Shown one piece after another: positions 24,209 to 46,828 of a DNA stretch of 64,000 nucleotides (positions are counted from its first letter, which is position 1; the number at the start of each line of letters is the position of its first letter). The notes under the pieces are model-generated. The model was given only the letters and a program-made list of their open reading frames with translations, did not search any database and was not told the DNA's origin. The translations under genes and the position numbers were made by a program. Source of the stretch: Rhizobium sp. BK418 (GTDB lineage: Bacteria; Pseudomonadota; Alphaproteobacteria; Rhizobiales; Rhizobiaceae); the NCBI RefSeq assembly GCF_004341105.1, contig NZ_SLZK01000011.1:62001-126000 (forward strand), in the 5' to 3' direction.

Positions 24209-25290
24209 AGCGCCAGTCGCAATTGTGGCTCCGCCTCCGCAGCGCGTTCCAGCGAGGACAAGGTGACGCCGAGCAGGCGGATGCCCTTGCGCGGCGGGAA
24301 GATTGGTGCGAGCAGCAGATCGACGATTTCGTCGAGGTCGCCGATCACCGACAGAGGTGCGGAAACCGTCTTGCTGCGGGTGATCTGGTTGAAGTCGGCA
24401 TATTTGACCTTGAGCGTCACCGTCTTAGCACCGATCCGGTTGGCCTCGCAGTAACCCCAGACCTTTTCGATCAGTGGCTGGAGCCCTTGGCGGGCCAGCT
24501 CATAGGCATGAAGGTCCTCGGAGAACGTATCTTCGGCGCCTACCGATTTGCGCACCCGGTCCGGCTTGACCTGGCGCTCGTCAATGCCGCGGGCGATGCC
24601 AAAGAAATAGGGTCCGGACTTGCCGAAATTCTGGACAAGGAATTCGAGCGTCTTCTCCTTAAGATCAGCGCCGGTATTAATCCCGAGCCGGCGCATCTTT
24701 TCGGCCGTCGCCGGACCCACGCCATGAAACTTCTTGACGGGGAGGGCTTCGACGAAGACCGGCCCGTCTCTCGGTGTGATGACAGCCTGGCCGTTCGGCT
24801 TGTTGAGGTCGCTTGCCATCTTGGCGAGGAACTTGTTGTAGGAAATACCGGCCGACGCGTTGAGCCCGGTCACCTGTTTGATCTTGGCCCGAATTTCCGA
24901 CGCTATCTCGGTGGCGACTGCCATGCCTTTGAGATTTTGCGTGACATCGAGATAGGCCTCGTCGAGCGAGAGCGGCTCGATAAGCGGCGTATATTCGGCA
25001 AAGATATCTCGGATCTGCTGCGACACTGTCTTGTAGACGTCGAAGCGCGGCGGCACGAAGATCAGCTCGGGACATTTGCGCTTGGCGGTCACCGACGGCA
25101 TGGCCGAGTGAACGCCGAAGGCGCGAGCCTCGTAGCTTGCCGCCGCCACCACGCCGCGTGCAGCCGATCCGCCGACGGCGATCGGCTTGCCGCGCAGCTC
25201 CGGATTATCGCGTTGCTCGACCGATGCGTAAAATGCATCCATGTCAACATGGACGATTTTCCGGACGGGAAAGGAGCTTACGTTCTGCAT
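24205..25290 (-). CDS. dinB: DNA polymerase IV
   Basis: 361 residues, normal length for Y-family Pol IV. The catalytic metal ligands Asp16 (HVDMDAFYASVE) and Asp110-Glu111 (PLSLDEAYLD) are present, as are the helix-hairpin-helix (FHGVGPATAEKMRRLGI) and little-finger domain. It copies past damaged template bases with low fidelity and is usually recruited by the beta clamp; no clamp motif was identified with confidence. It is one of several translesion systems in the window, with ImuB/DnaE2 9 kb away. No LexA box seen upstream. Confidence 0.95.
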   Translation of the reverse strand: MQNVSSFPVRKIVHVDMDAFYASVEQRDNPELRGKPIAVGGSAARGVVAAASYEARAFGVHSAMPSVTAKRKCPELIFVPPRFDVYKTVSQQIRDIFAEYTPLIEPLSLDEAYLDVTQNLKGMAVATEIASEIRAKIKQVTGLNASAGISYNKFLAKMASDLNKPNGQAVITPRDGPVFVEALPVKKFHGVGPATAEKMRRLGINTGADLKEKTLEFLVQNFGKSGPYFFGIARGIDERQVKPDRVRKSVGAEDTFSEDLHAYELARQGLQPLIEKVWGYCEANRIGAKTVTLKVKYADFNQITRSKTVSAPLSVIGDLDEIVDLLLAPIFPPRKGIRLLGVTLSSLERAAEAEPQLRLAL

Positions 25291-25844
25291 TCCAACTTCA
25301 CGGATTGCGATGGATCGGCTGCAAAAAAATCACGTTGAAACAAAGAGAGAACATAGCAGGGTTCGGGGCGATATCAACGCTTTAATAAGCGCGTGACTGA
25401 GGAGCGACCATGAGCCGCCGAAGACGTCGTCGCGCGAGAACATGGCCAGGGACGATGCTGACGAGGAACTGATGACGGCGGGGCCAGCATTCGGTAGTCT
25501 ATCGCGTTGTCACCGCTAAACTAAAGATCGGTTGGAGAAAGCGAACGAAGCCGCGCACGACGCCCTCGAATGGGATCGGCGGTTGCGCAAAGCCAAAACG
25601 CAAGGTCGCGCCTTGCTCGCTTGCAGACTGAGGAACAAGGTCGGCACCACTCGGTCCGGTCGGGTCCGGTAGATCGGCCGCGAGCCGAGGATAATATCCA
25701 ACAGCTAGATGCGTTGGTACTGGTCTACCCGGCAGGCTGGCGGCGATAGCGCGCCAGCGCCCGTGCCGCGGAGGGGCTTGGGTCATCTGGGGACAATCCT
25801 ATAGCGGCCAGCATCAGGAGGCGGGCCTCATGACGCAGCATAGC
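25291..25844. other. intergenic, no gene recognised
   Basis: 550 bp between two minus-strand genes. Short open frames without ribosome binding sites; an Ala/Glu-rich stretch near 25530-25630 might be a decayed small gene. Confidence 0.35.
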
Positions 25845-26126
25845 TTAGTCCCAGAGAAAATCCGGCCCGGTTGTCTGATAGGTCAGCCGCAAGGTCCCGT
25901 CAGGCTGAACCACATACCGTTCGAAGACACGGTACCCGAACTGCCCGAGAAAGGTGTTTTTGACGATCGTCCCAGGCTTGTAACGAGAATGGACGACTTT
26001 TCCGCCGTAAGTCAGGCTCCCCGGTAAAGGAGTGGGACCCGGTCGCGCTGTGGCCTCTGGCGTGCTGCAGCCGATGACCAATGTAGCGACAAGGAGGATC
26101 ATCGCACTTGTTGTTGAATGCTTCAC
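25845..26126 (-). CDS. small lipoprotein, 93 aa
   Basis: GTG start with GGAT 9 bp upstream. Lipoprotein signal (MILLVATLVIGCS, lipobox Cys about 20), then a Pro-rich linker and a compact domain (PGSLTYGGKVVHSRYKPGTI, YRVFERYVVQPDGTLRLTYQ). The gene at 57033-57311 encodes a paralogue with the same PGS-I/LxYxG and RxxExYxxxPDxTL pattern. It should sit in the inner or outer membrane facing the periplasm. Function unknown. Confidence 0.75.
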   Translation of the reverse strand: MKHSTTSAMILLVATLVIGCSTPEATARPGPTPLPGSLTYGGKVVHSRYKPGTIVKNTFLGQFGYRVFERYVVQPDGTLRLTYQTTGPDFLWD

Positions 26127-26400
26127 CGCCGAGATCCTTGATTAATGACAGACTGTTGTGGTGATCAAACGCATCTTCTCCTTCAACGAACTGCCGGGTA
26201 AGGCCGGTGCGGGTACCATCGCCAAATGGCGAGGATTTGCTCTTCAACCGACAGTTCCATGAACTTCGCCTGATGATGAAAGTTCCCGAGCGGGACCGCA
26301 CGCGCACGCAGTTTGAGGGTACGTCACCAACCTCCGGTCGCTGCGACACCTGCCAAGGCGGAAGTTCAGCAATTTCCGTGGGTATCGAGCTCTGAGAAGC

Positions 26401-26425
26401 GAAACCACCAGCCGCCAGACGCGTT
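26401..26425 (+). promoter_or_regulatory. EcfG-type promoter variant, GAAAC-N16-CGTT
   Basis: 35 bp before the ATG at 26461, upstream of the small gene and ligD. One mismatch in the -35 half. Confidence 0.4.
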
Positions 26426-26460
26426 GTGATGCTTTAGAGAACGTTATCAGGAGAGAGCCA

Positions 26461-26769
26461 ATGGGCGACGACAGCACGACGACAATCCGAGCCACGTTCG
26501 AAACACGGGAAGCGACCGATATTGCGGTCGAGCATCTGGTTCAGCAGTATGGCATCTCGCGCCCTGACATCTTCATCGAGCCCGCCGCCGGCCGCAATTC
26601 CGCCGGCTTGGTGCCCTCGGGGGGCGACGCCTCGCATGAGGAGGGCGCACGTCGCGATGCGCCGCTCAAAGGCGAGATCGAGGTTTCGGCGGACGTCAAA
26701 CGCAGCCAGGTCGGCGCTGTCGAGCGTTGTCTTGAGGAGGCCGGCGCCCTGCGGGTATCGAGCCGCTGA
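26461..26769 (+). CDS. small hypothetical protein upstream of ligD
   Basis: 102 residues with GGAGAG upstream. An N-terminal alpha/beta pattern ([36 protein letters not shown]), a Gly/Ala linker and an acidic C-terminal strand-helix ([20 protein letters not shown]). Resembles small ferredoxin-fold or heat-induced stress proteins, but I cannot name a family. It ends 2 bp before ligD, so the two are probably co-transcribed. Confidence 0.65.
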
Positions 26770-26771
26770 GC

Positions 26772-29408
26772 ATGGCCGATAATCTGTCGAAATACCGCGC
26801 CAAACGCGATTTTCAAAAGACCAGCGAACCGAGCGGTGAAACGCAGGTCAGGCCCTCGAACCGCCGGCGGTTCGTGATCCAGAAGCACGATGCGACGCGG
26901 CTTCACTACGACCTGAGGCTTGAGCTCGACGGCGTGTTCAAATCCTGGGCGGTGACCAAAGGACCATCACTCGATCCGCATGACAAGCGGCTCGCCGTCG
27001 AGGTCGAGGATCACCCACTCGACTACGGTGACTTCGAGGGCACGATCCCCAAGGGCCAGTATGGCGGCGGTACGGTCATGCTCTGGGATCGCGGCTATTG
27101 GGAGCCGGAAGGCAGGAAGTCGCCGCAGGAGGCTTTGAGGAAAGGCGATTTCAAGTTCACGCTCGAGGGCAAGCGGCTGCATGGCAGTTTCGTCCTGGTC
27201 AGGATGCACGGCGATCGGGACGGCGGCAAGCGGACGAACTGGCTGCTGATCAAGCATCACGACGATTATTCCGTCGACGAAAACGGCGCCGCAGTCTTGG
27301 AGGAGAACGCGACCTCTGTCGCCTCCGGCCGCACCATGGACCAAATCGCCAACGGCAAGGGCCGCAAGCCAAGCCCGTTCATGATGGCGAACGCGGATGT
27401 CGAGGCCGACGCCGTCTGGGACAGCACGCACGGCCTGGCGGCGGCCGAGCGCAAGAAGCGACCGCGCAAGGATGTCGCGACGTCCACCGCTGCCGATCTG
27501 CCGGATTTCATCGATCCGCAACTATGCGAAAGGCTTGATCGGCCGCCCGCCGGCGACGATTGGCTGCACGAGATCAAGTTCGACGGTTACCGTATCCAGA
27601 TGCGGGTCGCCGATGGAGCGGCGACGCTGAAGACGCGCAAGGGCCTCGACTGGACCGGAAAATATCCCGAAATTGCCGCTGCGGCCGCCGATCTTCCCGA
27701 CTGCATCATCGACGGCGAGATCTGCGCGCTCGACGAAAACGGCGCACCCGATTTTGCCGCGCTTCAAGCTGCTCTATCTGAAGGCAAGACCGCCGATCTC
27801 GTCTATTTCGCGTTCGACTTGCTTTTCGACGGCGGCGAGGACTTGCGGCCGATGCGCCTTATCGAGCGCAAGGAACGGCTCCAAAACCTTATCGACGCCG
27901 CGGACGGCGATCCGCGCATCCGCTATGTCGAACATTTCGAATCCGGCGGCGATGCCGTGCTTCGTTCAGCCTGCAAGCTGCATCTCGAGGGCGTGGTCTC
28001 CAAGCAAATGGATGCACCCTATCAATCCGGCCGCACCGACACCTGGGCAAAGTCAAAATGCAGGGCCGGCCATGAAGTGGTGATCGGCGGTTACGCCAAG
28101 ACCAATGGCAAGTTTCGGTCTCTGCTGGTCGGCGTCCATCGTGGCGATCACTTCGTCTATGTCGGTCGCGTCGGGACCGGCTACGGCGCCAGGAAGGTCG
28201 AGACTCTGCTTGCGAAACTGGAGGCGCTTGAGACGGGAAAATCGCCCTTCACCGGTATCGGGGCGCCGAAGAAGCAGGCTGAAGTGGTCTGGGTGAAACC
28301 GGAGCTGGTCGCTGAAATCGAATTCGAAGGCTGGACGGCAGACGGCCTCGTGCGACAGGCTGCCTTCAAGGGCCTGCGCGAGGATAAGCCGGCGAAAGAG
28401 GTCGAGGCCGAAAAACCTGCATCGCCTGCTCAGACCGATACGGCCGGACCTGCCCGCACGGTCAAGAGCAAGTCTGCCCGCCGCAAGGGCGCTAAGGCCG
28501 AAGTCATGGGCGTTCTGATTTCCAATCCCGATAAGCAGCTCTGGCCGGACGCCGGCGACGGCGAGCCCGTCACCAAGGAAGACCTAGCCCGCTATCATGA
28601 AGCGGTCGGCGCCTGGCTGATCGAGCATATCAGGGGCCGGCCGTGTTCGATCATTCGGGCGCCGGACGGTATCGGCGGAGAGCAGTTTTTTCAACGCCAC
28701 GCAATGCTTGGCACCTCCAACCTTCTGGAATTGGTGAAGGTCTTCGGGGATAAGAAGCCTTACTTGCAGATCGATCGGATCGAAGGACTCGCAGCCATCG
28801 CCCAGATCGGCGGGATCGAACTACATCCTTGGAATTGCGAGCCCGGCAAGCCGGAAGTGCCCGGCAGGCTCGTGTTCGACCTCGATCCCGGACCTGATGT
28901 TCCGTTTTCGACCGTGGTGGCGGCGGCCCGCGAAATGCGCGATCGGCTCGACGAGCTCGGTCTGGTCAGCTTCTGCAAGACCACTGGCGGCAAGGGATTG
29001 CATGTTGTGACCCCGCTCGCCGTCAGCAAACGAAAACCATTGTCCTGGGCCGAAGCCAAGGGCTTTGCACACGACGTCTGTCAGGAGATGGCGCGCGACA
29101 ACCCCGACCTCTATCTGATCAAGATGACCAAGAGCCTTCGAGGCGGCAGGATCTTCCTCGATTATCTGCGCAATGATCGCATGGCGACAGCCGTCGCACC
29201 ACTCTCGCCGCGCGCGCGTCCGGGCGCCACCATATCGATGCCGCTCACCTGGACGCAGGTGAAATCCAACCTCGACCCGAAACAGTTCACCTTACGTAGC
29301 GTGCCGGCGCTTCTTGCTAAAACATCCGCCTGGCAGGACTATTGTGACGGCGAGCGGCCGCTGGAGCAGGCGATCAAGCGCTTGGCCAAAGGACGACGCG
29401 CCGCATGA
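26772..29408 (+). CDS. ligD: ATP-dependent DNA ligase LigD (PE-ligase-polymerase)
   Basis: 878 residues with the three domains of bacterial end joining. The 3'-phosphoesterase comes first ([35 protein letters not shown], about 1-190). The ATP-dependent ligase follows, with nucleotidyl lysine Lys269 in EIKFDGYR and the OB fold to about 540. The primase-polymerase is last (LWPDAG, DLDPGPD with the metal Asp pair, [11 protein letters not shown], about 570-870). It trims, fills and seals Ku-bound double-strand breaks. The domain order is the proteobacterial one. Confidence 0.95.
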
Positions 29409-29527
29409 TCTGGCAAGGGCAGCTTGCAGGCGATGTCTGATGGACGAAGCAACAGAAGAGACATCCAAACCACGGCAGCCGACCGAGGGAGCGGCGACCG
29501 ATCTGCCTTTTATGTCAGGCCTTTTAG

Positions 29528-30571
29528 TCAGGCGGCCGGCTTCTCGTTGAGATCGAAGACGGCGGCGTTGTCCTGTACCTCGCGCAATCCCTTATAGGAT
29601 GCATGACGTAAGTTACCGTCATCGGTCCAGCCGCGGAACTCGATTTCGGCGATCAACGTCGGCTCGGCAAAGACGAGGTTCTTGCCCTTGAGCGCGACTG
29701 CCGGTCGACTGGTTCTCAGTTTGTCGAGCAGCGTGCGCAGCTCCTCGGCATTCTTGGCATCGAACCCCGTGCCGACCGAGCCGACATAGATCCATTCATC
29801 GCCGTTGCGGGCGGCCAGAAGCAGACTGCCGATGCCACCGCGCGCCACTTTTGATTGCTCATAGCCGACGACCATGAAGCTCTCGCTCTGGACACATTTG
29901 ATCTTCAGCCAGTCACCGGTGCGGCCGGAGCGATAAGGCCGCTCCCGGTGCTTGGCGATGATGCCCTCGAGCCCCATTGAGCAGGCATTCGCCAGAAGCT
30001 CGGCGCCATCGCCGGGCACTTCCTCCGAAAGCTGGATGGCGCCGGTGGCCCCGTCCAGAAAGTCCTCAAGCAGGTGCCGTCGGACGGAGAGCTCCGTTTT
30101 CGTCAGATCGTGACCATCGAAATAAAGAAGATCAAAGGCGAAGAACACTGATTCCATGGAGGCGCGCTTTCCGCCCCGACCGCCGAGCGAACGCTGTAGT
30201 GCGCCAAAATTCGAACGGCCCTCCTTGTCGAGAACGACCGCCTCGCCGTCCAGGATCGCCGTTGCGACGCCGAGCTTCTTGGCTTCCTCGGCGATCACCG
30301 GGAACCGATGCGTCCAGTCGTGCCCCCCGCGGGTAATGATCCGCACGCCCTTTGGTTCGATGTGGACGGCGAGCCGGTAGCCATCCCATTTCATCTCGAA
30401 GGCCCAATCCGGACCTCGCGGCGGGATTTTCTTCAAGAGCGCCAGGCAAGGCTCAATTCGCTCCGGCATAGGATCGAAGGGAAGATTGGGTTGCGTCGGG
30501 TCGCGGGAACGGGCCGGCTTCGACTTGAGAACCTGGTCGTCCTGGAGAAGCGGTTTGACGCGGCGGCTCAT
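29528..30571 (-). CDS. ATP-dependent DNA ligase, ligase domain only
   Basis: 347 residues. Nucleotidyl lysine Lys61 in EMKWDGYR, further ligase motifs (AILDGEAVV, FFAFDLLYFDG, LEGIIAKH, WLKIKC) and a C-terminal OB fold. No phosphoesterase or polymerase domain, so it is a second, shorter LigD/LigC-type enzyme that could seal nicks or simple ends with Ku. Its ATG overlaps the stop of the upstream ku gene (ATGA), so translation is coupled. An extended N-terminal frame from 30886 only reads antisense-like sequence inside ku. Confidence 0.9.
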   Translation of the reverse strand: MSRRVKPLLQDDQVLKSKPARSRDPTQPNLPFDPMPERIEPCLALLKKIPPRGPDWAFEMKWDGYRLAVHIEPKGVRIITRGGHDWTHRFPVIAEEAKKLGVATAILDGEAVVLDKEGRSNFGALQRSLGGRGGKRASMESVFFAFDLLYFDGHDLTKTELSVRRHLLEDFLDGATGAIQLSEEVPGDGAELLANACSMGLEGIIAKHRERPYRSGRTGDWLKIKCVQSESFMVVGYEQSKVARGGIGSLLLAARNGDEWIYVGSVGTGFDAKNAEELRTLLDKLRTSRPAVALKGKNLVFAEPTLIAEIEFRGWTDDGNLRHASYKGLREVQDNAAVFDLNEKPAA

Positions 30572-31377
30572 CTGCCCGCCCGCTTCTCGGCCGCAACCGA
30601 TTTCTTCAGCGCATCCATAATATTGACGACGTTGTTGGCTGGTGACGACGGCTGAGGTTTCGCTTTTGTTTTGGCAGGCTTTTTCAATGTCTTCTTCTTG
30701 GCGGCAATGATGTCGAGCAGCCGCTCTTGGACGGGATCGGCAACCATTTTCGGGGTCCAGTCCTTCGTCTGTTTTGTGATCAGCTGTTGAATAAGCGGCA
30801 TCAGCTCCGGCTCCGCCTTTTCGTCGCCGATAGCCTCGAAATAGGCGTCCTCGTCGCGGACCTCGTCTCCGTAGCGCAGCGTCCACAAGACGATGCCCTT
30901 GCCGCGTGGCTCGAGCATGACGGCGCGTTCGCGCCGCGAGATGACGAGCCTGGATATTCCGACCATGTCCTGCGCCTCCATGGCATCTCTAATGACCGAA
31001 AACGCTTCCTGACCGACCGGATCGTTCGGCGAGAGATAATAGGGCGCGTCCAGCCAGATCCAGTCGATGCTGTCGCGCGCGGTGAAGGTGGAAATATCGA
31101 TTGTCTTCGTGCTTTCCAGCGCGACATTCTCGAGCTCCTCGTCTTCGAGAATGACGTATTCGTTCTCTCCGCGCTGGTAGCCCTTGACCTCGTCCTCTTC
31201 CGTGACGTCCTTGCCTGTCACGGAATCGACGTAATGGCTGACGACGCGGTTCTGGGTCTGACGGTTGAGCGTATGGAAACGGACTTTGTCACTCTCCGAC
31301 GTGGCCGGCATCATCTGCACCGGGCAGGTAACGAGGGAGAGTTTGAGATAGCCTCGCCAGTAGGGACGTAGAGCCAT
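30568..31377 (-). CDS. ku: Ku protein (first of two)
   Basis: 269 residues, typical bacterial Ku: PYWRGYLKLSLVTCPVQM start, Ku core with DSIDWIWLDAPYYLSPNDP and ISRRERAVMLEPRGKG, and a Lys-rich tail (AKKKTLKKPAKTKAKP). It threads onto DNA ends and recruits LigD-type ligases. Second gene of a three-gene operon: 16 bp after the first ku gene and overlapping the ligase start. Together with the upstream Ku it could form heterodimers, as described for rhizobia with several Ku proteins. Confidence 0.95.
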   Translation of the reverse strand: MALRPYWRGYLKLSLVTCPVQMMPATSESDKVRFHTLNRQTQNRVVSHYVDSVTGKDVTEEDEVKGYQRGENEYVILEDEELENVALESTKTIDISTFTARDSIDWIWLDAPYYLSPNDPVGQEAFSVIRDAMEAQDMVGISRLVISRRERAVMLEPRGKGIVLWTLRYGDEVRDEDAYFEAIGDEKAEPELMPLIQQLITKQTKDWTPKMVADPVQERLLDIIAAKKKTLKKPAKTKAKPQPSSPANNVVNIMDALKKSVAAEKRAGR

Positions 31378-31392
31378 GGCGGCGTCCTCCGA

Positions 31393-32292
31393 TCAGCCGG
31401 CGCGACGGGCCGGCGTTGCCGCTGTCTGCTTGGATTTTACAGCGCGTTTTGCAGCTTTTGAGCGGCCGGCGCCGCGGTTGGCATTGGCGGCGGTACGCTT
31501 CGGCTTGGCGCCCTCCGCTGCGATCCCGGCACTCTCGCGCAGGGCCTGCAAGAGATCGCTGGGCTTGGACGCAACCGGTGCCTTCTTCTTCGGCAGTGCG
31601 CGGCCCTCGATCTTGGCTTTTACCAGCTCGGCAACGGCCGCCTCATAGCGATCGTCGAACGCACTGGCGTCGAAGCTGCCCTTCTTCGTGCCTATGATAT
31701 GTTCGGCAAGCTCGAGCATCTCTCCTTCGATTTTGAGGTCCGGCATGTCTTCGAATGCCTTTTCCGACGAACGGACCTCGTAGTCGAAGTTCAGGGTCGA
31801 GGCGATCAGCCCCTTGCCATGCGGCCGGATGAGAACGGTGCGCATCCGGCGAAAGAGCACGGTGCGGGCGATACCGGCCACATGTTCCTGTTTCATGCCA
31901 TCCCGCAGGAGAATGAAAGCATCCTCGCCCATCTTGTCGGGCGCCAGATAGTAGGGCTTGTCGAAGTAGGTCGTGTCGATCTGCGAGCAGGGAATGAAAG
32001 CTTCGATCCTCAGGGTCTTGTCACTTTCAGGCACCGCGGCTGCGACCTCCTCTGGCTCGAGAACGATATATTGGCCGTTTTCGACCTCATAGCCTTTGAC
32101 CTGGTCCTCGCGCTCCACCGGATCTCCGGTCTCGCCGTCGACAAATTCCCGCTTGACCCGATTGCCCGTTTTTCGATTGAGGGTGTTGAAGGCGATGCGT
32201 TCGGATGAGGATGCAGCCGTGTAGAGCGCTACCGGACAGGAGACCTCTCCGAACTTGATATAGCCTTTCCAACTCGCTCTTGGCCCTGCCAT
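31393..32292 (-). CDS. ku: Ku protein (second, with long basic tail)
   Basis: 299 residues starting MAGPRASWKGYIKFGEVSCP, with GGAGT upstream. The Ku core is intact (TYFDKPYYLAPDKMGEDAF, VLFRRMRTVLIRPHGKGL). It differs from its neighbour in a long Lys/Arg/Ala C-terminus (KRTAANANRGAGRSKAAKRA and beyond), likely a DNA-binding extension. First gene of the operon ku-ku-ligase. A relaxed stress promoter (GGAAC-N18-TT) lies 33 bp before the ATG. Confidence 0.95.
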   Translation of the reverse strand: MAGPRASWKGYIKFGEVSCPVALYTAASSSERIAFNTLNRKTGNRVKREFVDGETGDPVEREDQVKGYEVENGQYIVLEPEEVAAAVPESDKTLRIEAFIPCSQIDTTYFDKPYYLAPDKMGEDAFILLRDGMKQEHVAGIARTVLFRRMRTVLIRPHGKGLIASTLNFDYEVRSSEKAFEDMPDLKIEGEMLELAEHIIGTKKGSFDASAFDDRYEAAVAELVKAKIEGRALPKKKAPVASKPSDLLQALRESAGIAAEGAKPKRTAANANRGAGRSKAAKRAVKSKQTAATPARRAG

Positions 32293-32325
32293 TGCCTGAC
32301 ACTCCTGACGCAACTCAAGCGATTC

Positions 32326-32350
32326 AAGCGAATCGGCATCCAATTGTTCC
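32326..32350 (-). promoter_or_regulatory. EcfG-type promoter, GGAAC-N16-GCTT
   Basis: 33 bp before the ku operon start; matches the relaxed GGAAC-N18-TT form only. Confidence 0.35.
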
Positions 32351-32490
32351 GAGCCAAAACGAATCATTTTTCAATGACTTAACCGGGCGCCAATGCGCGC
32401 GTTGCGAGTCCCCTTTAAAGCGATGATTCCAATGCATCTTTTTTCCGCTGCGCGCGTTTTCGAAGGAGACAACCTGAAAGGAGTCCCTCT

Positions 32491-32667
32491 ATGAGCAAGC
32501 GTGAACTGATCGATACGGGAAGCGATAAACGCTACGTTCGACGCGACCACAACGGCAGGTTCAAGGAGAGCGTCGACGTCTCAAGGTCGCTCTCGGCAGA
32601 TGCACGTCATGCCGCAGAACACGAGGCCAAATCCGGGCAGGGCGACAAGGGCGACCGCAAGCGCTGA
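32491..32667 (+). CDS. small basic protein, 58 aa
   Basis: MSKRELIDTGSDKRYVRRDH, NGRFKESVDVSRSLSADARH, then a Lys/Gly-rich end. AAAGGAG 8 bp upstream. The motif RELIDTGxDKRxVRRDxxGRFKES with SLSAD recurs in small rhizobial proteins of unknown function. Soluble, charged, probably disordered. Divergent from the ku operon; no stress box on its own strand. A minus-strand frame overlaps its 3' end. Confidence 0.75.
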   Translation: MSKRELIDTGSDKRYVRRDHNGRFKESVDVSRSLSADARHAAEHEAKSGQGDKGDRKR

Positions 32668-32834
32668 CCTCGGCAGGCTGGCTACCACAGGCCGGAGGGC
32701 GTCGATCGCCTTCCTGCTTTCATCGATGAATGCTGCCGGCGGAACTGCTGCGGGTAAGAGAGAAGAAACGACGCTAGGGCCTCTTTTGTTTTCCATTGCG
32801 CCGCGTCCCGCAGCACGTTCCGGAAGCGACAATG

Positions 32835-33122
32835 TTATTCGATGTCGTCCATGTCGGCTGTCCCCAGTGACATTCCTGCGGCGATCAGACCTGGAAACCG
32901 CGTCTGGCACCGGTCGATCCCGTCTCGGGCAACCATTCTCGGACAACCCATCGAGATGCGTCTTCGAAGCTGCACGAAGCTGAGGCTCGCTCCGTATTGC
33001 TTGACCAACGCCTGGCGGTCGAGTTCGGCGCGGCGATCGCATGCGGGGCATTCGACGGCAATGGTCGGGCTGCGGAATTCGCGCAGCGTCAGAACCTGGC
33101 TATTTTTTCTTATGGATGACAT
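32835..33122 (-). CDS. conserved rhizobial protein with zinc-finger-like Cys motif
   Basis: 95 residues starting MSSIRKNSQVLTLREFRSPT. Contains VECPACDRRAELDR (Cys pair) and later MGCPRM and DRCQTRFPGL, giving a Cys4-like metal site around an RQALVKQYGASLSFVQLRRR helix. Probably a small DNA- or RNA-binding protein. Divergent from imuA; the LexA box in the shared region could act on both. Confidence 0.7.
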   Translation of the reverse strand: MSSIRKNSQVLTLREFRSPTIAVECPACDRRAELDRQALVKQYGASLSFVQLRRRISMGCPRMVARDGIDRCQTRFPGLIAAGMSLGTADMDDIE

Positions 33123-33254
33123 TTTCTGCGTGCTGTGGATCTGTAGGCTTCTCTTGTTTGATTTGAAAGGACTTTTGGCGGCCAATCTGGTGTGGGTTGT
33201 CGCTGAATAGGAATATCCACCCGCTAGATGCGCGTTGACTCACATTCACAACAG

Positions 33255-33269
33255 GAACAAATAAGGAAC
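33255..33269. promoter_or_regulatory. LexA box, GAAC-N7-GAAC
   Basis: GAACAAATAAGGAAC, an exact match to the alphaproteobacterial SOS box, 49 bp before the imuA start. Places imuA-imuB-dnaE2 under LexA. Confidence 0.85.
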
Positions 33270-33318
33270 ATATGCGCTTTTGCGCAATTAGGAAACCTGA
33301 ATCTGATGATGAGCGGCC

Positions 33319-34074
33319 ATGGCTCAGGCGAGCGCAAATCCTGTCATTTCCGAGCTGAGGGAGCGGATTCGACATCTCGAACGAGACGAAGGACGCGAGC
33401 AGCCTGTCCTACCGTTCGGCGTCCCGGAGATCGACCAGGCCCTGCCTCGGGGCGGGCTGGTCTGCGGTGCCCTGCACGAGTTCGCGGGTGGCGGGGCCGG
33501 CACGGTGGATGGCGCGGCCGCCGCTTTGATGGTGGCCGGAATAGCGGCGCGCACGAAGGGCAAAGTGCTTTGGTGTCTGACGAGGCCCGACCTATTTTTT
33601 CCGGCGGTCTCGCAGGCCGGCCTGCACCCTGATCGGGTCATCTTCTGCGAAAGCGATCGCGAGGAGGGCGTTCTGGCATCGATGGAAGAAGGCCTGGCGT
33701 TCGGGGGGCTCGGCGCCGTGATCGGAGAACTGGTGCGATTGCCGATGACCGCGTCGCGCCGCCTGCATCTGGCCGCCGAGAAGACCGGCACGATGGCGAT
33801 CGCCCTCAGGAGGTGGCGAAGACAGTCCGAGGCCTCTGACTACGGTCAGCCGACGGCATCCACCACGAGATGGCGTATCAGCGTTCTGCCCTCCGAGCCG
33901 TTACCCGTCTCCGGAGTAGGCCGCGCCAGATGGCTGGCCGAATTGATGCGCGTGAAAGCAGGCGAGTGTGCTGAGTTCGAAATAGGAGCCTGTGATGCCA
34001 AGGGTCGTATCTGTTTACTTCCCGTTTCTGCCGACAGATCGGATCAGACGTCATGGCGACGCCGTTCCGGCTGA
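33319..34074 (+). CDS. imuA: mutasome protein ImuA
   Basis: 251 residues, RecA-related accessory protein of the ImuA-ImuB-DnaE2 mutasome. Visible blocks: LPFGVPEIDQALPRGGLVCG, LHEFAGGGAG, KVLWCLTRPDLFFPAVSQAG, VIGELVRLPMTASRRLHLAA. The Walker A motif is degenerate, as is usual. First gene of the cassette; its end overlaps imuB by 80 bp. Induced through the LexA box upstream. Confidence 0.92.
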   Translation: MAQASANPVISELRERIRHLERDEGREQPVLPFGVPEIDQALPRGGLVCGALHEFAGGGAGTVDGAAAALMVAGIAARTKGKVLWCLTRPDLFFPAVSQAGLHPDRVIFCESDREEGVLASMEEGLAFGGLGAVIGELVRLPMTASRRLHLAAEKTGTMAIALRRWRRQSEASDYGQPTASTTRWRISVLPSEPLPVSGVGRARWLAELMRVKAGECAEFEIGACDAKGRICLLPVSADRSDQTSWRRRSG

Positions 34075-35506
34075 CCAGCCTCTGGTGGTGATCTCGAAAA
34101 GCGGATCGAAACGCTGGATTTCGGCTGCAGATAGAAACGCCCGAAAGCTCGGTCTCCATATCGGCATGCCGGCGAGCAAGGCGCAGGCGATGGTCTCCAA
34201 CCTCGCCGTCGTGGAGGCCGATCCGATCGCAGACGCTGCTGTGATCGAGCGCCTGGCACTGTGGGCGCTTCGACAATACAGCCCAGTGGTCTCGGTGGAC
34301 GGAACCGACGGAATCGTCATGGACACGGAAGGGGCTGACCATCTCCAGGGTGGCGAGGAACGCCTGATGTCCGGGCTGGTGAACATGCTCCGCGCGCGGG
34401 GCCTCACCGCAAGGGTAGCCGTCGCAGATACATGGGGTGCGGCCCATGCACTCGCCCGCCTGACATCGGCCGAGACAACGGTCGTTCCTGTAGGCGGTAT
34501 TGCCGAAGCGGTGGTCGCATTGCCGATCCACTGCCTGCGGCTTTCGCCAGAACAGGTCAGCGGATTAAGGGCAATGGGTATCGAAACTGTGGGCGAACTC
34601 TCGGCTCTGCCGCGGGCTCCGCTGGCACTGCGCTTCGGCCCGGAGCCGGGAAGGCGGCTCGACCAGTTGTTCGGCAGAGTCGCCGAACCGATCGAGCCGT
34701 TGCGCACGCCCGAGTTGGTCGAGGTGTCGCGCAATTTTCAGGAACCGATCGGGGCTGCGCAAACCATTGCAAAATACGTCCGCCGCCTCGTGAACCAACT
34801 GACGACGAAGCTGGAAGCGCGTGGTCTAGGTGTCAGGCGCTCCGATCTGGTCATCCATCGCGTCGATAACACCCGGCAATGTCTCCGCGCCGGACTTGCC
34901 AAGCCGGTCCGTGATCCTGACCGTCTCTCCAGACTGCTCTGCGACCGCATCGAGAAGATCGATCCGGGCTACGGCATCGAGCGGATGGTCCTCGTCGCGA
35001 TCATGGCAGAACCCCTCGAAGAAAAGCAGATCGCCTCGTCCCTCATCGACGAGCCGGTCGTCGACGTCACGCCGCTGGTCGATATTCTCGGCAATCGCGG
35101 CCAGTGCCTCTATCGGGTCACTCCCGTCGCCTCCGACGTTCCCGAACGCTCCGTCGCCCGCATCGGGCCAACCGTTGAGGAAACGGGGGCGGCGTGGGCC
35201 GCCAAATGGCCGAGACCATCACGTCTCCTGCCATATCCGGAGGAGATCGAGGTTATCGCGGTCCTGCCGGACCAGCCGCCGGCAGTTTTCACCTGGAGGG
35301 GTAAGCGTCGCCGTGTGAAGCGGGCCGATGGACCCGAGCGGATATTCGGCGAATGGTGGACCACGCCGTTGGAGATGCGGGCCGTCCGCGACTACTTCGT
35401 CGTGGAAGACGAAACGGGCGAGCGATACTGGGTCTTCCGCGCCGGTGACGGCGTCGATGTGACCACGGGCTCGCACAAATGGTTTCTCCATGGGGTCTTC
35501 GCATGA
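33995..35506 (+). CDS. imuB: mutasome protein ImuB (catalytically inactive Y-family polymerase)
   Basis: 503 residues, start chosen for AGGAG 7 bp before ATG 33995. Y-family palm and finger blocks ([32 protein letters not shown]) lack the acidic catalytic residues, as in all ImuB proteins. It bridges DnaE2 to the beta clamp. Overlaps imuA at its start and dnaE2 at its stop (ATGA), so the three are translated together. Confidence 0.92.
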
Positions 35507-38500
35507 CATACGCCGAACTCCAGGTGACGACGCATTTCAGCTTTCTCAGGGGCGCAAGTTCGCCCGAGGAGCTGTTCGCGACCGCTGCTGCATACGGCAT
35601 CGACGCGATCGGCATCGTCGACCGCAACAGTCTCGCGGGTATCGTCCGCGCTTGGGAGGCAGCCAAAACGACGGGCGTTCGGCTCGTCGTCGGATGCCGT
35701 CTCGACCTCAGGGAGGGAATGTCGCTTCTGGTCTACCCGACGGACCGCCCGGCCTATTCCCGACTGACCCGATTGCTCTCGCTCGGCAAAAGTCGCGGCG
35801 GCAAGGGCAAGTGCATCCTCGATATCACCGACGTCGAAGTCTACAATGAAGGGCTTCTGGCTATCCTGGTGCCCGATGAGGCAGACGACAGCTATGCGGG
35901 TCAGCTTCGTAAGCTTGCCACAATCTTTGGCGATCGCGCCTACGTCTCCCTTTGCCTTCGCCGCCGGCCGAACGATCGCTTGAGATTGCACAATCTGTCG
36001 AACATGGCAGCACGTCATCAGGTGAAGACCGTCGTCACCAACGACGTCCTGTTTCATGAGCCCGGACGGCGGCAGTTGCAGGATGTCGTCACCTGCATCC
36101 GACACGGCACGACTATCGACGACGTCGGCTTCGACCGCGAACGGCATGCCGACAGGTTCCTAAAGGCGCCGGAGGAAATGCATCGGCTTTTTTTTGACTA
36201 TCCCGAGGCCTTGGCGCGCACGCGTGAGATCGTCGATCGCTGTCGTTTCGATCTCGGCCAATTGCAATACCAATATCCCGAGGAAGCCATTGTGCCGGGC
36301 CTCGATGCGCAGCAATCGCTGGTGAAGTTTGCGTGGGAAGGGGCGGCCGAGCGCTATCCGGAAGGCGTTCCGCGAAAGGTCAGGAAGGCAATCCTTCACG
36401 AGCTGGACCTGATCCGGGAGATGAAATACGCCCCATATTTCCTGACCGTTTTCAATATTGTCAGATATGCGCGTTCGCAGGGAATTCTGTGCCAAGGACG
36501 CGGCTCGGCCGCGAATTCGGCCGTCTGCTATTGCCTGGGCATCACATCGATCAATCCCGAGACGTCCGACCTGTTGTTCGAACGCTTCGTATCACGCGAA
36601 CGCGACGAGCCGCCCGATATCGACGTCGATTTCGAGCACAATCGCCGCGAGGAGGTGATCCAGTGGATTTATGAGACCTACGGTCGTTCCCGGGCGGCGC
36701 TGGTCTGCACGGTCACCCGCTATCGCACCAAAGGGGCTCTGAAGGACGTGGGCAAGGCGTTGGGCTTGCCGCAAGACCTTATCGAACAACTGTCCTCGGG
36801 CGTCTGGGGCTGGTCGGAAGGCGTGGGCGAGCGGCAGCTCAAGGAGAACAATCTCAACGCAGCCGACTATCGCTTGCGTCTCGCCCTCGAACTGTCCTCG
36901 CAGCTGATGGGGGCTCCGCGCCACCTCGGACAACATCCTGGCGGTTTCGTACTGACCCAGGATCGCTTGGATGACCTGGTGCCGATCGAGCCGGCTGCCA
37001 TGGACGATCGACAAGTCGTCGAATGGGATAAGGACGATCTCGAGGCGTTGAAATTCATGAAAATGGACGTTCTCGGGCTTGGCATGCTGAGCTGCATGTC
37101 CAGAGCCTTCGAGCTCCTTGCCGAACACAAGGCGCTACCGATGGGGCTTGCCGACGTCCCACAGGAAGAGGCGCAGACCTATGCGATGATCCGCAAAGCC
37201 GACACGCTCGGGACGTTTCAGGTGGAATCCAGAGCCCAGATGGCGATGCTGCCTCGCCTGAAACCCAGAACCTTCTATGATCTGGTAATCCAGGTGGCGA
37301 TCGTCCGCCCCGGCCCGATCCAGGGCGATATGGTTCACCCGTATCTGCGCCGACGCGAGGGCAAGGAAGAGGTGGTCTACCCAACGCCAGAGCTCGAGGC
37401 GGTGCTGAAGAAGACCCTCGGCGTTCCCCTTTTTCAGGAAAGCGCCATGAAGGTCGCCATGGTGTGCGCCGGCTTTACCGCTGGCGAAGCCGACCAGCTG
37501 CGGAAATCGATGGCGACGTTCAAATTCACGGGCGGGGTCTCGAAGTTCAAAGACAAGCTGATCACCGGAATGATCAACAACGGCTATACACCGGACTTCG
37601 CAGAGGAGACGTTCGGCCAGCTCGAAGGATTCGGCTCCTACGGTTTCCCAGAAAGCCATGCCGCCAGCTTTGCGTTGATCGCTTACGCGTCCTGCTGGGT
37701 GAAATGCCATCATCCGGATGCCTTCTGCACGGCGCTGCTCAACAGCCAGCCGATGGGCTTCTACGCACCCGCCCAGATCGTGCAAGATGCCCGAAAACAC
37801 GGTGTTGAAATCCGGCCCGTCTGCGTCAACCGGTCCCGCTGGGACTGCACGATGGAGCCGATCGAGGGCACCGACCGCTTTGCCGTCCGATTAGGGATGC
37901 GGATGGTCAAAGGGCTGGCGACGAATGATGCCGCCAGGATCGTCATAGCCCGCGCCGACCAGCCATTCGTGTCGGTCGATGACATGTGGCGCAGGTCTGA
38001 TGTCCCGGTCGCAGCTCTTGAGAAGCTGGCCGAAGCCGATGCGTTCCTGCCGTCGTTGAAGCTCGAGCGCCGGCAGGCGCAATGGGATATCAGGGCGCTG
38101 CGCGATGAGCCGCTGGAACTATGGGCAGCGGCGGCCGAGCGCGAATTAAGGACGATCCCGGAGATGCAGGAACCGCAAGTGACCTTGAAATCTATGACAT
38201 ATGGCCGAGAGGTCGTCGAGGACTACACGCATACGGGTTTGTCGCTGAGGCAGCATCCGGTCAGTTTTTTGCGCCGTGAACTGGCGAAGAAGGACATCGT
38301 GACCTGTTCGGAGGCGATGAGCCAGCGGGACGGCAGATGGCTGATGACGGCCGGACTTGTTCTCGTCAGGCAGCGCCCAGGATCGGCCAAGGGCGTCATG
38401 TTCCTAACGCTTGAAGACGAGACCGGCATCGTCAACGCAGTCGTGTGGCCATCGTTGTTCGAGCGTCAGCGGCGGATACTGATGGGCGCAAGCATGATGG

Positions 38501-38760
38501 CGATCAACGGCAAGATCCAACGGGAAGGCGAGGTCGTTCACCTTGTCGCCCAGAGGCTGTTCGACCTGTCTTCAAATCTCGCGGGAATAGGAGCGGGGGA
38601 ACGTGAGTTCCAATTGCCGCATGGACGGGGTGACCAGGTCAAGCATGGTGGCGGGCCAGACACGCGGGATAATCCGAAGCCGGCAATGCAGGCGAGGAAT
38701 ATCTATATTCCCGATCTGCACATCGATACGCTCAAGGTGAAGTCGAGAAACTTTCACTAG
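35503..38760 (+). CDS. dnaE2: error-prone DNA polymerase III alpha subunit
   Basis: 1085 residues, C-family polymerase. PHP domain at the N-terminus ([20 protein letters not shown]), polymerase core ([40 protein letters not shown] with the metal Asp pair, [12 protein letters not shown]), the [13 protein letters not shown] motif, helix-hairpin-helix, and OB fold ([20 protein letters not shown]). It performs mutagenic translesion synthesis with ImuA and ImuB. ATGA overlap with imuB. Confidence 0.95.
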
Positions 38761-38911: not shown

Positions 38912-39451
38912 TCAGACCCGTTCCAATGGCAGGAAAGGCGGCGCGGGTAGTCTCTGCTCGATGACGTCACCTGCTTTCACGATACCGCCCTTCAAAACGA
39001 TCGTCATGATGCCTGCCTTGCGGATGAGCGCGCCGTTCGGCCCCCTGTCCAGGACGGCCTTCAACAAGCCCGGCTGAAAGCGGTCGATCTGGGCGCAAGG
39101 ATTGCGAAGTCCTGTCACCTCAAGCTCGACATCCGGACCAAGTTTCAAAATGGTACCACGAGGAAGAGCAAGAAGGTCGACACCACTCGTCGTCACGTTT
39201 TCCCCGAGATCGGCTGGCCAAACCCGAAAGCCTTTGGACGCCAGCTCCTCGAACAACTCGGCGTGGATGAGGTGGACCTGTCGGAGGTTCGGCTGTGTCG
39301 GGTCGGTACGCACGCGAGACAGATGCTGGACGGTCTTGCCGAGATGCGCGTCGCCTTCGACGCCGAGACCGGCAATCACGCGGATCGCCTCAACTCTTGT
39401 CTTCGAAAACCTATGCCTTGAATCCGCTGCGACGGCGATGACCTTGCCCAT
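38912..39451 (-). CDS. MOSC domain protein
   Basis: 179 residues of the MOSC (molybdenum cofactor sulfurase C-terminal) fold: GLGVEGDAHLG, VHLIHAELFEELA, DLGENVTTSGVDL, LRNPCAQIDRFQPGLL with the conserved Cys, GIMTIVLKGGIVKAGD. Standalone MOSC proteins bind a sulfur-carrying cofactor or transfer sulfur; the substrate here is unknown. It may relate to the molybdopterin oxidoreductase at the window end, but is 24 kb away. Confidence 0.88.
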   Translation of the reverse strand: MGKVIAVAADSRHRFSKTRVEAIRVIAGLGVEGDAHLGKTVQHLSRVRTDPTQPNLRQVHLIHAELFEELASKGFRVWPADLGENVTTSGVDLLALPRGTILKLGPDVELEVTGLRNPCAQIDRFQPGLLKAVLDRGPNGALIRKAGIMTIVLKGGIVKAGDVIEQRLPAPPFLPLERV

Positions 39452-40403: not shown

Positions 40404-40904
40404 TCAGGCCGCTGGGCCGTAAGGCGTCAGCAGACGCTCGAGCGTGACGGGCCGCAGGCCGCGCGCGTCGACGCCGACGTCGAACTGGCGGGGGAGGGGC
40501 TTTAGTCGGCCGTGCGAATGTCCGTGCAGGTTGATGGACTTCTTGCTCATCTGGTTCCAGGTCCGGAACGCGTAATGGCATAGGATGAGATGGTGTCCGT
40601 CCTGGCGCAGTTCCGCATAGTACTGCACGCTCTCCCATCCCGGTGAGTCAGTCGTCGTGCGCGTGTCGTTGTTGCCGATGATCAAGTGCTTCCGGCCGTT
40701 CAGCCGGGAGAGCAACGCCCCGCAGTCGGCCGCTTTTGCCGACATGAAGTCTCCGAGATGCCAGACCTCATCCTCGGGGCCAACCGTCTCGTTCCAAATT
40801 CGGATCAGGGCGTCGTCATGGTCGATCATTCTGGAAAACGGGCGCTTGTCGAGGCGCAGGACGCGCAAATCGCCGAAATGTGTATCGCTCGTATAATAGT
40901 TCAT
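40404..40904 (-). CDS. metallophosphoesterase
   Basis: 166 residues starting MNYYTSDTHFGDLRVLRLDK. Calcineurin-type metal motifs in order: D-x-H (SDTHFG), GD (HLGDF), GNND, H (CHYAF) and GHSH (LHGHSHG). Such small enzymes hydrolyse phosphodiesters or nucleotides; substrate unknown. Weak ribosome binding site, so the start (an in-frame start 21 bp earlier exists) is less certain. Confidence 0.88.
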   Translation of the reverse strand: MNYYTSDTHFGDLRVLRLDKRPFSRMIDHDDALIRIWNETVGPEDEVWHLGDFMSAKAADCGALLSRLNGRKHLIIGNNDTRTTTDSPGWESVQYYAELRQDGHHLILCHYAFRTWNQMSKKSINLHGHSHGRLKPLPRQFDVGVDARGLRPVTLERLLTPYGPAA

Positions 40905-41559
40905 CTGACATATCTGGTGCTTCACGCTCGAACGTCCACGACTTGGCGGTCATCGAAGTCGGCTCGACATTGCGACTTCAGACGCCCGCAGAGGCGGGGC
41001 GGAAATTCCGCCCCGATCGGATCGCCAGGTGCGCCAAGATTGAAGAGCCTTGCGCCCAAAAATGCGGGAAGGACAAAGTGACCTCGTGGTACCGATCGTG
41101 ATGCGGGCTTGGCGACCGCCGCAGCTAGCCGGACAATTGTCGGCCGGCCTCGAGACCGGAGCTCGGCAATCCGCGACCCTGCCTGGGAAAGCGCAGCGTG
41201 TCGCTCAACCGCCGAATGTCGGTATGGATACCTGGACCTGGCCGCATTGCGGCAGGTCCAGGCTCGCTTGCGTGGGACGGAACTCCCAGACGCTTTTGAA
41301 CACGATTCGCCGTTAGCCTGCAGGCTTTGTCCGAAAACGTACCGACTGACGCTATCGGCGAAGGGTTGCTGTCCTGAGCACATGATCGGCAGGCGAGATG
41401 GCCGGTGCGAGCGCGGGGAATGCGAGGGCGACCGCTGCGCACGTTGACGCCGTTATCTAAATCTACTCGACGTCAAGCATCCCGCTTGAAGGGGGCGGAT
41501 AAGCGACGTCGCAAGAACCGACCGCCTTGGCTTCCCAGAATTTCTTTTCAGGTTGAGCT
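40905..41559. other. intergenic, no protein gene recognised
   Basis: Longest gap in the window. Frames here are Arg/Ser-rich and lack start signals. Its right end runs into the promoter of the predicted sRNA. Confidence 0.4.
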
Positions 41560-41585
41560 GGAACCAAAGCAGATGTTTCGAGGTT
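41560..41585 (+). promoter_or_regulatory. EcfG-type promoter of a predicted sRNA, GGAAC-N17-GGTT
   Basis: Predicts transcription from about 41592, with no protein gene before the terminator at 41661-41699. Confidence 0.5.
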
Positions 41586-41591
41586 CGTTGA

Positions 41592-41700
41592 TCGACGCGG
41601 CGCCTTGACCTCCCGCAAGGCGAGATCGCCCCTCTCGATCGCTGCGTCGCGTTGTGAAGAATGCCTCCGGCACGGTCTCCCCCAGTCGGAGGCATTTTTA
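41592..41700 (+). ncRNA. predicted stress-induced sRNA with three C/U-rich loops
   Basis: Between a stress-type promoter (41560-41585) and an intrinsic terminator lies a region of about 108 nt with three consecutive hairpins. H1: CGCCTTG / CAAGGCG with loop ACCTCCCG (41601-41622). H2: GATCG / CGATC with loop CCCCTCT (41624-41640). H3, the terminator: ATGCCTCCG / CGGAGGCAT with CTCCCCC in the loop (41661-41695). Each loop offers an anti-Shine-Dalgarno-like C/U tract. This resembles the sigma-T-dependent GsrN RNA of Caulobacter and the rhizobial alpha-r14 RNAs in principle; homology is not claimed. The 5' end is inferred. Confidence 0.55.
41661..41699 (+). terminator. intrinsic terminator of the predicted sRNA
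   Basis: Perfect 9-bp stem ATGCCTCCG / CGGAGGCAT, 17-nt loop and a T-run. Confidence 0.8.
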
Positions 41701-42053
41701 TGGTTCGGGAAGAGGAAATATGTGGGTCATCAGTTGGTGAGCTGACATCCGGCTCCTGTACGAACCCCAAACCGGAAGAATTGGCGTCGCCGATATGCGA
41801 GCGCTCGTGATTAGGTCAAGCGGCGACGACCCGAAAAATATCCACAAACTCGCAGCGACCGTATTGTGAGGGTCTCCGCAAAAACAGGCATCACGAGAGA
41901 AGGGCGAGGTGCTTAGGAGCGGCTTTCATTTCTGTTGCGGCGTCGTGAGCCCATGGACCCCGTACGGTAGCAGACCGGATCCTTTTATTCGCTGACAAGT
42001 TTCCTCGCCTTTGAAGGAGCGGCGGTGACGGATGCCTGTCTGAGGAGAGCGCT

Positions 42054-42287
42054 ATGACGAACGAGGACCCGTACGGATCAGCCAAGGCCACGACCGAATA
42101 CGAGGCGCAGGGAAAGCGCGGGGCGCGAGCCGGAAAAGCCCTCTCCGGTTGGGCAGTTTTCGTGGCGGCCATCTTCGTTGGAACAATCCTCGCTTGGGTC
42201 GCGCTCCACGAGGGCGTCGAGACGAACCCTGCACCGGGTCCAACCGATGATGGGATTCGCTCGGGGCGCGGAGCAGCTCAGAACTGA
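42054..42287 (+). CDS. small single-TM protein, 77 aa
   Basis: MTNEDPYGSAKATTEYEAQG start with GGAG 7 bp upstream. One membrane helix (WAVFVAAIFVGTILAWVAL) after a charged cytosolic N-terminus, then a short polar tail. Unknown function; no stress box found. Confidence 0.65.
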   Translation: MTNEDPYGSAKATTEYEAQGKRGARAGKALSGWAVFVAAIFVGTILAWVALHEGVETNPAPGPTDDGIRSGRGAAQN

Positions 42288-43734: not shown

Positions 43735-43977
43735 TCACGTGTCGTCGACGACGCCCGTTTCAGGGCGCTCCTCGCCGCTGACTTCCTGGGTCAGCCACGC
43801 ACCGTTTTCATCCTGGAAGGTGATCTCGGCTCCTTCGCCGGTGAGGCGCTGACGTTTCGCAGCTGCGCGGGCCGCCTGGAGAGCCTCTTCGTGAGATGGA
43901 AATGTCTCGGACCAGACGTCAGCGACGCGATAGGCAAATCCCTCGTCATGTTCGTCGACATGATAGATTAACGCCAT
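43735..43977 (-). CDS. DUF2188 protein, 80 aa
   Basis: Starts MALIYHVDEHDEGFAYRVAD with GGAGG 5 bp upstream. Pattern FAYRVADVWSETFPSHEEAL, QAARAAAKRQ and a beta strand AEITFQDENGAWLTQ; this is the DUF2188 layout (a small beta-sheet plus a helix). Acidic C-terminus. Perfect stress promoter 25 bp upstream. Function unknown. Confidence 0.8.
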   Translation of the reverse strand: MALIYHVDEHDEGFAYRVADVWSETFPSHEEALQAARAAAKRQRLTGEGAEITFQDENGAWLTQEVSGEERPETGVVDDT

Positions 43978-44002
43978 TGGATCCTCCACGTTGCCTGACC
44001 AC

Positions 44003-44027
44003 AACGAACCTCGATGGAGCAAGTTCC
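44003..44027 (-). promoter_or_regulatory. EcfG-type promoter, GGAAC-N16-CGTT (perfect)
   Basis: 25 bp before the ATG at 43977. Confidence 0.7.
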
Positions 44028-45971: not shown

Positions 45972-46796
45972 TTACATCTGTTCGCGTTGCGCGCCGCTGT
46001 TTGGAAGTGCCGGGCCGAGCGCCGGTTCAGGACCAAGCGGTTTCATCAAGGCGGTTACGAACTCGCCCTTGCCATCAACCGAGGGTCCTTCCGACCAACG
46101 GCCGGGAGCGGGCGTGCTGCCATCCTGATGGAAGCCGAGATAAGCGTAATTGAACTCCTGGTTTTCCTGTTCCTGTGGAAAGCTGTTTGGGATCGGGAAG
46201 ACGCCCTTGGGTCCGCCAAGCTCCTCGAGGGCCGCCAGCCATTGGTTCTGGTGCATCGTGTCGCGCGCGATCAGAAACGACAGCATCTCTTTCATGCCCC
46301 GGTCGCTGGTCAGATTGTAGAGCCGCGTTGCCAGCACGCGTCCCGTCGATTCGGCGGCGACATTGGCCGTCATGTCTGCGGCGATGTTGCCGCTCGCGTA
46401 AATATGGGACATATCGAAGGGAACACCGTCCGAATCGACCGGCATCGCCGACAGACCGGCAGACAGTAGGTTCTTCATGTTGAGGCCGCCAAGGACCGCG
46501 CTTGCAACCGGATCGGCCGCCACTTCATCCTTGATCGAAACCGGAGCACCTTCAAGGTTGAGGGCAACCGCCGTCGCAAGCATTTCGATATGCCCGAGTT
46601 CTTCGGTCGCGGTGTTCATGAGAAGATCGCGGAACTTCGGATCGCCGCGAGCGCCGCACGCCTGGAAGAAATATTGCATGGCGACGCGGATTTCGCCTTC
46701 GACGCCGCCGATCGCCTGCTGCAGCGCGCGGGCAAACTGCGGATCCGGCGTTTCGACACGTACTGGGAATTGAAGCTTGTTGTCTGTGTAGAACAT
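45972..46796 (-). CDS. manganese catalase
   Basis: 274 residues of the Mn-catalase family (non-haem, dimanganese). Ligand-bearing helices visible: GGVEGEIRVAMQYFFQACGA (Glu), TEELGHIEMLATAVA (Glu and His), NVAAESTGRVLATRLYNLTS (Glu) and RDTMHQNQWLAALEELGG (His). It converts hydrogen peroxide to water and oxygen in the cytosol. GGAG gives good spacing to ATG 46796; the ATG 6 bp earlier is too close. Stress-type promoter 32 bp upstream. Confidence 0.93.
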   Translation of the reverse strand: MFYTDNKLQFPVRVETPDPQFARALQQAIGGVEGEIRVAMQYFFQACGARGDPKFRDLLMNTATEELGHIEMLATAVALNLEGAPVSIKDEVAADPVASAVLGGLNMKNLLSAGLSAMPVDSDGVPFDMSHIYASGNIAADMTANVAAESTGRVLATRLYNLTSDRGMKEMLSFLIARDTMHQNQWLAALEELGGPKGVFPIPNSFPQEQENQEFNYAYLGFHQDGSTPAPGRWSEGPSVDGKGEFVTALMKPLGPEPALGPALPNSGAQREQM

Positions 46797-46828
46797 CGAC
46801 ATCTCCTGGGGGTTGGCGAGGTCCGGGT

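Follow-up and report, generated by a model that had tools for sequence, protein, structure and literature searches.

How the alphaproteobacterial general stress response acts after transcription has been little explored, and in those passages of the cited literature that concern EcfG-type RNAs, a worked-out mechanism is given for GsrN only. The C-rich loop of this RNA is described as pairing with katG and activating it (PMC5869019). ReC64 of R. etli is reported to be under direct EcfG control, and the EcfG1 motif of that species is given as GGAAC-N16-CGTT (PMC3892343). In S. meliloti, sigma-E2 motifs have been predicted before 23 small RNAs (PMC3616915). A second line of comparison is ar14 (NfeR1/Smr14C2), in which three anti-Shine-Dalgarno-type loops are described as acting redundantly on translation start regions, thereby silencing them (PMC7143759).

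The window analysed here, the whole stretch of 64,000 nucleotides from Rhizobium sp. BK418, a soil-dwelling member of the root-nodule bacteria, contains at 41592..41700 (+) a predicted small RNA gene, indicated by its fold, by covariance-model matches and by covariation, and without a conserved reading frame. The segment 41591-41700 (+) folds with -54 kcal/mol (z -5.76; 0 of 200 shuffles equally good); the opposite (-) strand folds with z -2.10, a value equalled by 7 of 200 shuffles. In both the minimum-energy and the centroid fold of the + strand, an outer stem (41593-41601 with 41641-41649) clamps hairpins 1 and 2 and is followed by a terminator hairpin. Hairpin 1 occupies 41602..41621 (stem 41602-41607 with 41616-41621) and presents the loop ACCTCCCG at 41608-41615, while hairpin 2 occupies 41624..41640 (stem 41624-41628 with 41636-41640) and presents CCCCTCT at 41629-41635. 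The terminator hairpin with its U-rich end, found by folding and by a terminator scan, spans 41657..41699, and its loop ACGGTCTCCCCCA (41672-41684) holds CTCCCCC, so that all three loops are C-rich. The preliminary description had drawn these three hairpins and loops in the same way; the outer stem enclosing the first two was absent from it. The terminator scan alone proves nothing, since it finds one site at this locus (41675-41693) against 1.8 expected in shuffles. With a start inferred at about 41590-41592, the predicted transcript is about 109 nt long. A protein-coding reading was rejected, as relatives share no reading frame and their length differences are not multiples of three.

Close relatives are few. 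A blastn search with 41500-41760 against 72,556 plasmid records gives one match, on plasmid p2 of Sinorhizobium sp. B11, with 84% identity over 41558-41700, which corresponds to promoter plus RNA, and with no annotated feature beneath; in pairwise alignment the conserved block stops at the terminator, and the flanks align poorly. Matches are found by blastn in 4 of 148 genomes of the genus, own included, and, among 297 genomes drawn from the family, in the own genome together with two short matches in other genera (L003, L004). A type-b member (see below) finds no match among the plasmid records by BLAST, and an exact 19-base pattern scan of genome contigs returns four unrelated bacteria.

Covariance models extend this set. 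The model R1, built from the four closest sequences, adds six loci from the genus, with E values between 2.8e-5 and 1.4e-4; these, its six top non-training scores there, rank above a set of ar14-like RNAs and were included in the ten-sequence model R2. Six more loci were taken from the R2 scan, among them G312, which lay far down the list (E 0.008) with ar14-like hits ranked higher and was later supported by its neighbouring genes. R3, built from 15 sequences, matches 17 loci in 10 of the 148 genus genomes at E 0.01, with up to three per genome; 15 of these places are its own training rows and two are new, namely L089 and another copy carried by the own genome. The search in relatives called for in the preliminary description thus yields a family whose C-rich loops are kept and whose distribution within the genus is narrow, the remaining 138 genomes giving no R3 match at this threshold. 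In wider scans, run with stricter Infernal filters at the cost of some weak matches, a sample of 297 genomes of the order yields with R3, besides the own genome, three marginal hits (E 0.006-0.009), about as many as chance would give, and R2 matches 8 of 394 family genomes, four of them outside the genus with matched sequences that look like ar14 RNAs. At nine named plasmid loci beside related MOSC or phosphoesterase genes (L101-L109), R3 gives weak matches only, with E 0.19 (L108) and 0.82 (L107).

The 17 loci fall into several types. Type a comprises four loci (the window, B11 plasmid p2, G427 contig 27 and G380 contig 72), type b eight, counting the altered copy in the own genome, and type c two, the B11 plasmid and G427 contig 27 each having a second copy, of this type; G304, G312 and G431 contig 54 are single loci. 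An alignment of 15 rows, 14 of them distinct and all related to one another, was compared with 500 shuffles. Paired cells make up 93.2% against 83.2% in shuffles, both sides change in 16 of 34 pairs against 9.2, cells with both-side changes number 53 against 17.0, and the covariation score is 0.345 against 0.179, none of the 500 shuffles being as high in any of these four measures. The number of further pair types is unexceptional (34 against 31.2; 51 of 500 as high), and sliding the pair partners lowers pairing to 34-46%. Since the rows were aligned to the structure of the model, these counts are biased in its favour. Covarying pairs lie mostly in the terminator (helix 5, 10 of 15); the outer stem (helix 1, 94.5% paired in the family alignment) contributes 1 of its 8 pairs, hairpin 1 contributes 2 of 4 and hairpin 2 contributes 1 of 5. 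When the four closest sequences are aligned with MAFFT, only 2 of 34 pairs covary and the covariation term is slightly unfavourable. Of three relatives folded singly, that of G427 (type a) takes the family shape, that of B11 forms a different hairpin 1, and that of G380 (type a) does not adopt the shape by minimum energy. The family loops 1, 2 and 3 contain 46, 53 and 51% C, compared with 32% in stems and 33% at other unpaired positions, and beyond this shared C-richness the loop sequences vary between types. That relatives keep the loops while the stems change argues that the RNA is real, and covariation of the stems, whose absence was one of two outcomes that the preliminary description had named as refuting its proposal, is present.

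The promoter points the same way. An EcfG-type promoter lies at 41560..41585 (+), with a -35 element GGAAC at 41560-41564, a spacer of 17 and a -10 element GGTT at 41582-41585, its motif and position being kept in relatives and in the type-a alignment. The promoter type had been recognised correctly before; as a correction, CGTT (41586-41589) sits 21 nt from GGAAC, too distant to be the -10 element. The resulting GGAAC-N17-GGTT stands one base from the R. etli motif, with GGTT rather than CGTT and a spacer of 17 rather than 16. Because the two strands of the window contain 29 instances of the loose motif GGAAC-N15..17-NGTT, a single occurrence means little; its significance derives from its fixed place before 16 of 17 relatives and a displaced copy in the 17th. 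GGAAC-N16/17-NGTT, the kind of promoter that marks GsrN/ReC64-type RNAs, is found at all 17 family loci, that of the window included (CGTT 7, GGTT 5, TGTT 4, AGTT 1), ending 5-8 nt upstream of the model start in 16; at the 17th, the own genome's second copy, whose 5' half has changed, the motif overlaps the 5' end of the model.

The covariance models contain no upstream sequence, and among 48 model hits classed as non-family (excluding G315 and G325, rows without a locus, and the repeats L064 and G307) none carries the motif between -60 and +10. Most of these control hits resemble ar14 by eye, L034 alone being confirmed by Rfam. The choice of family members was not blind to the promoter, as upstream sequences were inspected before weak hits were added to the next model; G312 was kept for R3 partly on its promoter, and if it is excluded, the non-family control becomes 1 of 49. 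On comparative sequence evidence, structure, covariation, kept C-rich loops and an EcfG-type motif at a fixed place are features of this family, and the earlier proposal that an EcfG-type promoter drives a noncoding RNA gene standing by itself is supported by the covarying stems, the conserved loops and the contrast of 17/17 with 0/48.

Comparison with described RNAs places the window RNA in a new family of a known general kind. Nothing in an Rfam scan of the window reaches a gathering score, and none of the 15 family loci scanned (of 17) reaches a threshold, while ar7 and ar14 controls do so in the same run. The best match of the window is ar7 (Smr7C/SmelC023; RF02342), with 18 bits (E 0.17) against a gathering score of 60 and 104.2 bits for the control L021, so membership was rejected; a loop with CCCCUCUC and a C-rich terminator loop are nevertheless alike in the two RNAs. 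Assignment to the alpha-r14 family (RF02344), to which the preliminary description had drawn a parallel, likewise fails, since the window and the 15 loci stay below the cut-off of 58.8 bits that the control L034 passes with 102.9. Like the window RNA, ar14 has three hairpins, each with an anti-Shine-Dalgarno-type loop, whereas for NfeR1 a sigma-70-type promoter and repeated CTCCTCCC loops are described, and no outer stem is seen in those passages of the source (PMC7143759).

GsrN and ReC64, as portrayed in the relevant sections of the sources, share with the window RNA an EcfG-type promoter, an exposed C-rich loop and a length of about 90-110 nt (PMC5869019, PMC3892343); they differ in architecture, GsrN being compared by description, and in place, as they are defined by nearness to the ecfG/phyR locus. 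Nearness to ecfG/nepR/phyR is the criterion given outside Caulobacteraceae, C. crescentus itself being an exception (PMC5869019), and the window, which belongs to contig 11, does not share a contig with the NepR gene of the own genome, found on contig 3. At that NepR locus (G000:C3; L086, + from 1049) stands a candidate GsrN/ReC64-like RNA with GGAAC-N16-AGTT, hairpins, a terminator and C-rich loops, one hairpin loop being TCCCCTCCC; it has no Rfam match, and R3 does not match it at E up to 1. The phrase "GsrN-like logic" used at the outset is therefore fair as an analogy and does not extend to sequence and structure, as the family model misses this candidate. The RpoE2-dependent small RNAs of S. 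meliloti, such as SmelB126, are likewise stress-sigma-dependent and come from a related bacterium (PMC3616915). SmelB126 (L013), the sole one compared by sequence, was rejected as a homologue, as it gives no alignment, has a different fold and has no R3 match. A word search of the main texts of openly licensed papers retrieved nothing connectable with the window RNA. The RNA belongs to a family of its own, which the searched Rfam release lacks and for which structure, promoter and paralogues are defined.

The stable fold, a promoter of its own, an intrinsic terminator and exposed C/U-rich loops are together those of trans-acting small RNAs with anti-Shine-Dalgarno loops. We consider it probable that the locus is a gene for an EcfG-dependent RNA of this class, pairing with G-rich Shine-Dalgarno regions or leaders; such pairing is suggested by the several accessible C/U-rich loops, which stay the same in character as the stems vary, and it is inferred together with transcription under stress, any use of Hfq and the targets. 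In the proposed mechanism, the anti-sigma partner switch would release EcfG, RNA polymerase would start at about 41590-41592 and stop at about 41699, and the RNA of about 109 nt would expose its three C/U-rich loops from two clamped hairpins and the terminator hairpin. Several mRNAs would be bound by these loops at G-rich Shine-Dalgarno or leader sequences, which would mostly lower translation; for some mRNAs, pairing could raise it, as with GsrN and katG.

Within the window, the target prediction suggested at the outset was run on 27 genes (222 leader-loop tests), and no leader stands out; the lowest percentile, 0.5%, is unremarkable because chance gives such a value among 222 tests. The manganese catalase gene (45972-46802, -; Pfam Mn_catalase), suggested as a candidate target in the preliminary description, was rejected as such, lying 4.3 kb from the RNA with its best leader-loop pairing at the 13th percentile of random sites. 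The absence of an outstanding target in these tests, together with the several similar loops in each molecule, would also suit a sponge or protein-binding RNA that acts through its repeated C-rich loops by sequestering G-rich regulatory RNAs or an RNA-binding protein rather than by meeting mRNA leaders. We regard this as unlikely: no candidate partner was identified, and the differences between types beyond C-richness are no less consistent with C-rich seeds that base-pair.

At type-b loci, a histidine kinase gene lies upstream of the RNA in 7 of 7 cases examined with wide flanks, and an OmpR-type regulator is present in 3 of 3 tested; the type-b copy of B11 sits on its 4.7-Mb replicon. Orthologues of the kinase occur in 3 of 21 genomes, own included, and those of G297 and G306 have no EcfG motif within 700 nt downstream. 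The own genome's second copy (G000:C1:979504-979626; L084 3505-3627, -) follows a histidine kinase and has an intact GGAAC-N16-CGTT; with its 5' half and C-rich loops changed, it is perhaps decaying or re-purposed. R3 finds the RNA on plasmid pRPC2 of Rhizobium sp. BG4 at the coordinates of the G312 contig 3 locus, where it comes after MOSC, hydrolase and small hypothetical genes. The window RNA adjoins MOSC (38912-39451) and phosphoesterase (40404-40925) genes, and such neighbours at both loci support common descent.

Genes on the same strand downstream, a 77-aa ORF at 42054 in the window and glgX 582 bp away at the BG4 locus, might suggest a leader or attenuator. This is very improbable, as the terminator and 353 nt separate the RNA from the ORF, downstream genes vary from locus to locus, and on the B11 plasmid both loci are followed by an annotated gene in convergent orientation, so that the RNA cannot be its leader. 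A palindrome of chance or repetitive origin beside a chance GGAAC motif, to which the commonness of the motif in the 64 kb and of terminator-like sites in shuffles would lend itself, is barely credible given covarying stems and a promoter distance fixed in 16 of 17 loci, and with only two copies in its own genome the element is not a dispersed repeat.

The predicted RNA gene sits in a region of DNA-repair and stress genes, with LigD, Y-family polymerases and Mn catalase. On B11 p2, Mn catalase and topoisomerase IB genes lie about 40 kb from the type-a RNA, and ligD about 2 kb away. Part of this gene set accompanies the RNA copies of B11 on their plasmid, which suggests that regulators of translation, wired to the stress sigma factor of the host, are carried by accessory replicons. 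Only tentatively can the family be viewed as a portable extension of the general stress response that has reached accessory plasmids, together with one chromosomal site, within part of a Rhizobium/Sinorhizobium genus; its paralogues would keep the EcfG promoter and the C-rich loops while their stems drift, and through it an acquired replicon might reset host translation upon release of the stress sigma factor.

Several minor observations accompany these results. The DNA-repair cluster of the window (24205-35506) comprises LigD, another ATP-dependent ligase and a pair of genes resembling Y-family polymerases, and is followed by a 1093-aa ORF (35479-38760) that by eye resembles a DnaE-type polymerase. 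One B11 plasmid bears two family copies of different type (CP091035.1 325919-326030 and 401960-402069), of which the first is flanked by a response regulator gene and an ABC transporter operon, the latter in convergent orientation. The terminator stem is so symmetric that R1 weakly matches the opposite strand at L005 6100-6145 (-; 21 bits), and it might also halt transcription arriving from the other side. Finally, GGAAC-N16-CGTT occurs at 44003-44027 (-) of the window, just upstream of an inner ATG (~43977) of the DUF2188 ORF 43735-44022, and this gene may be a member of the stress regulon.
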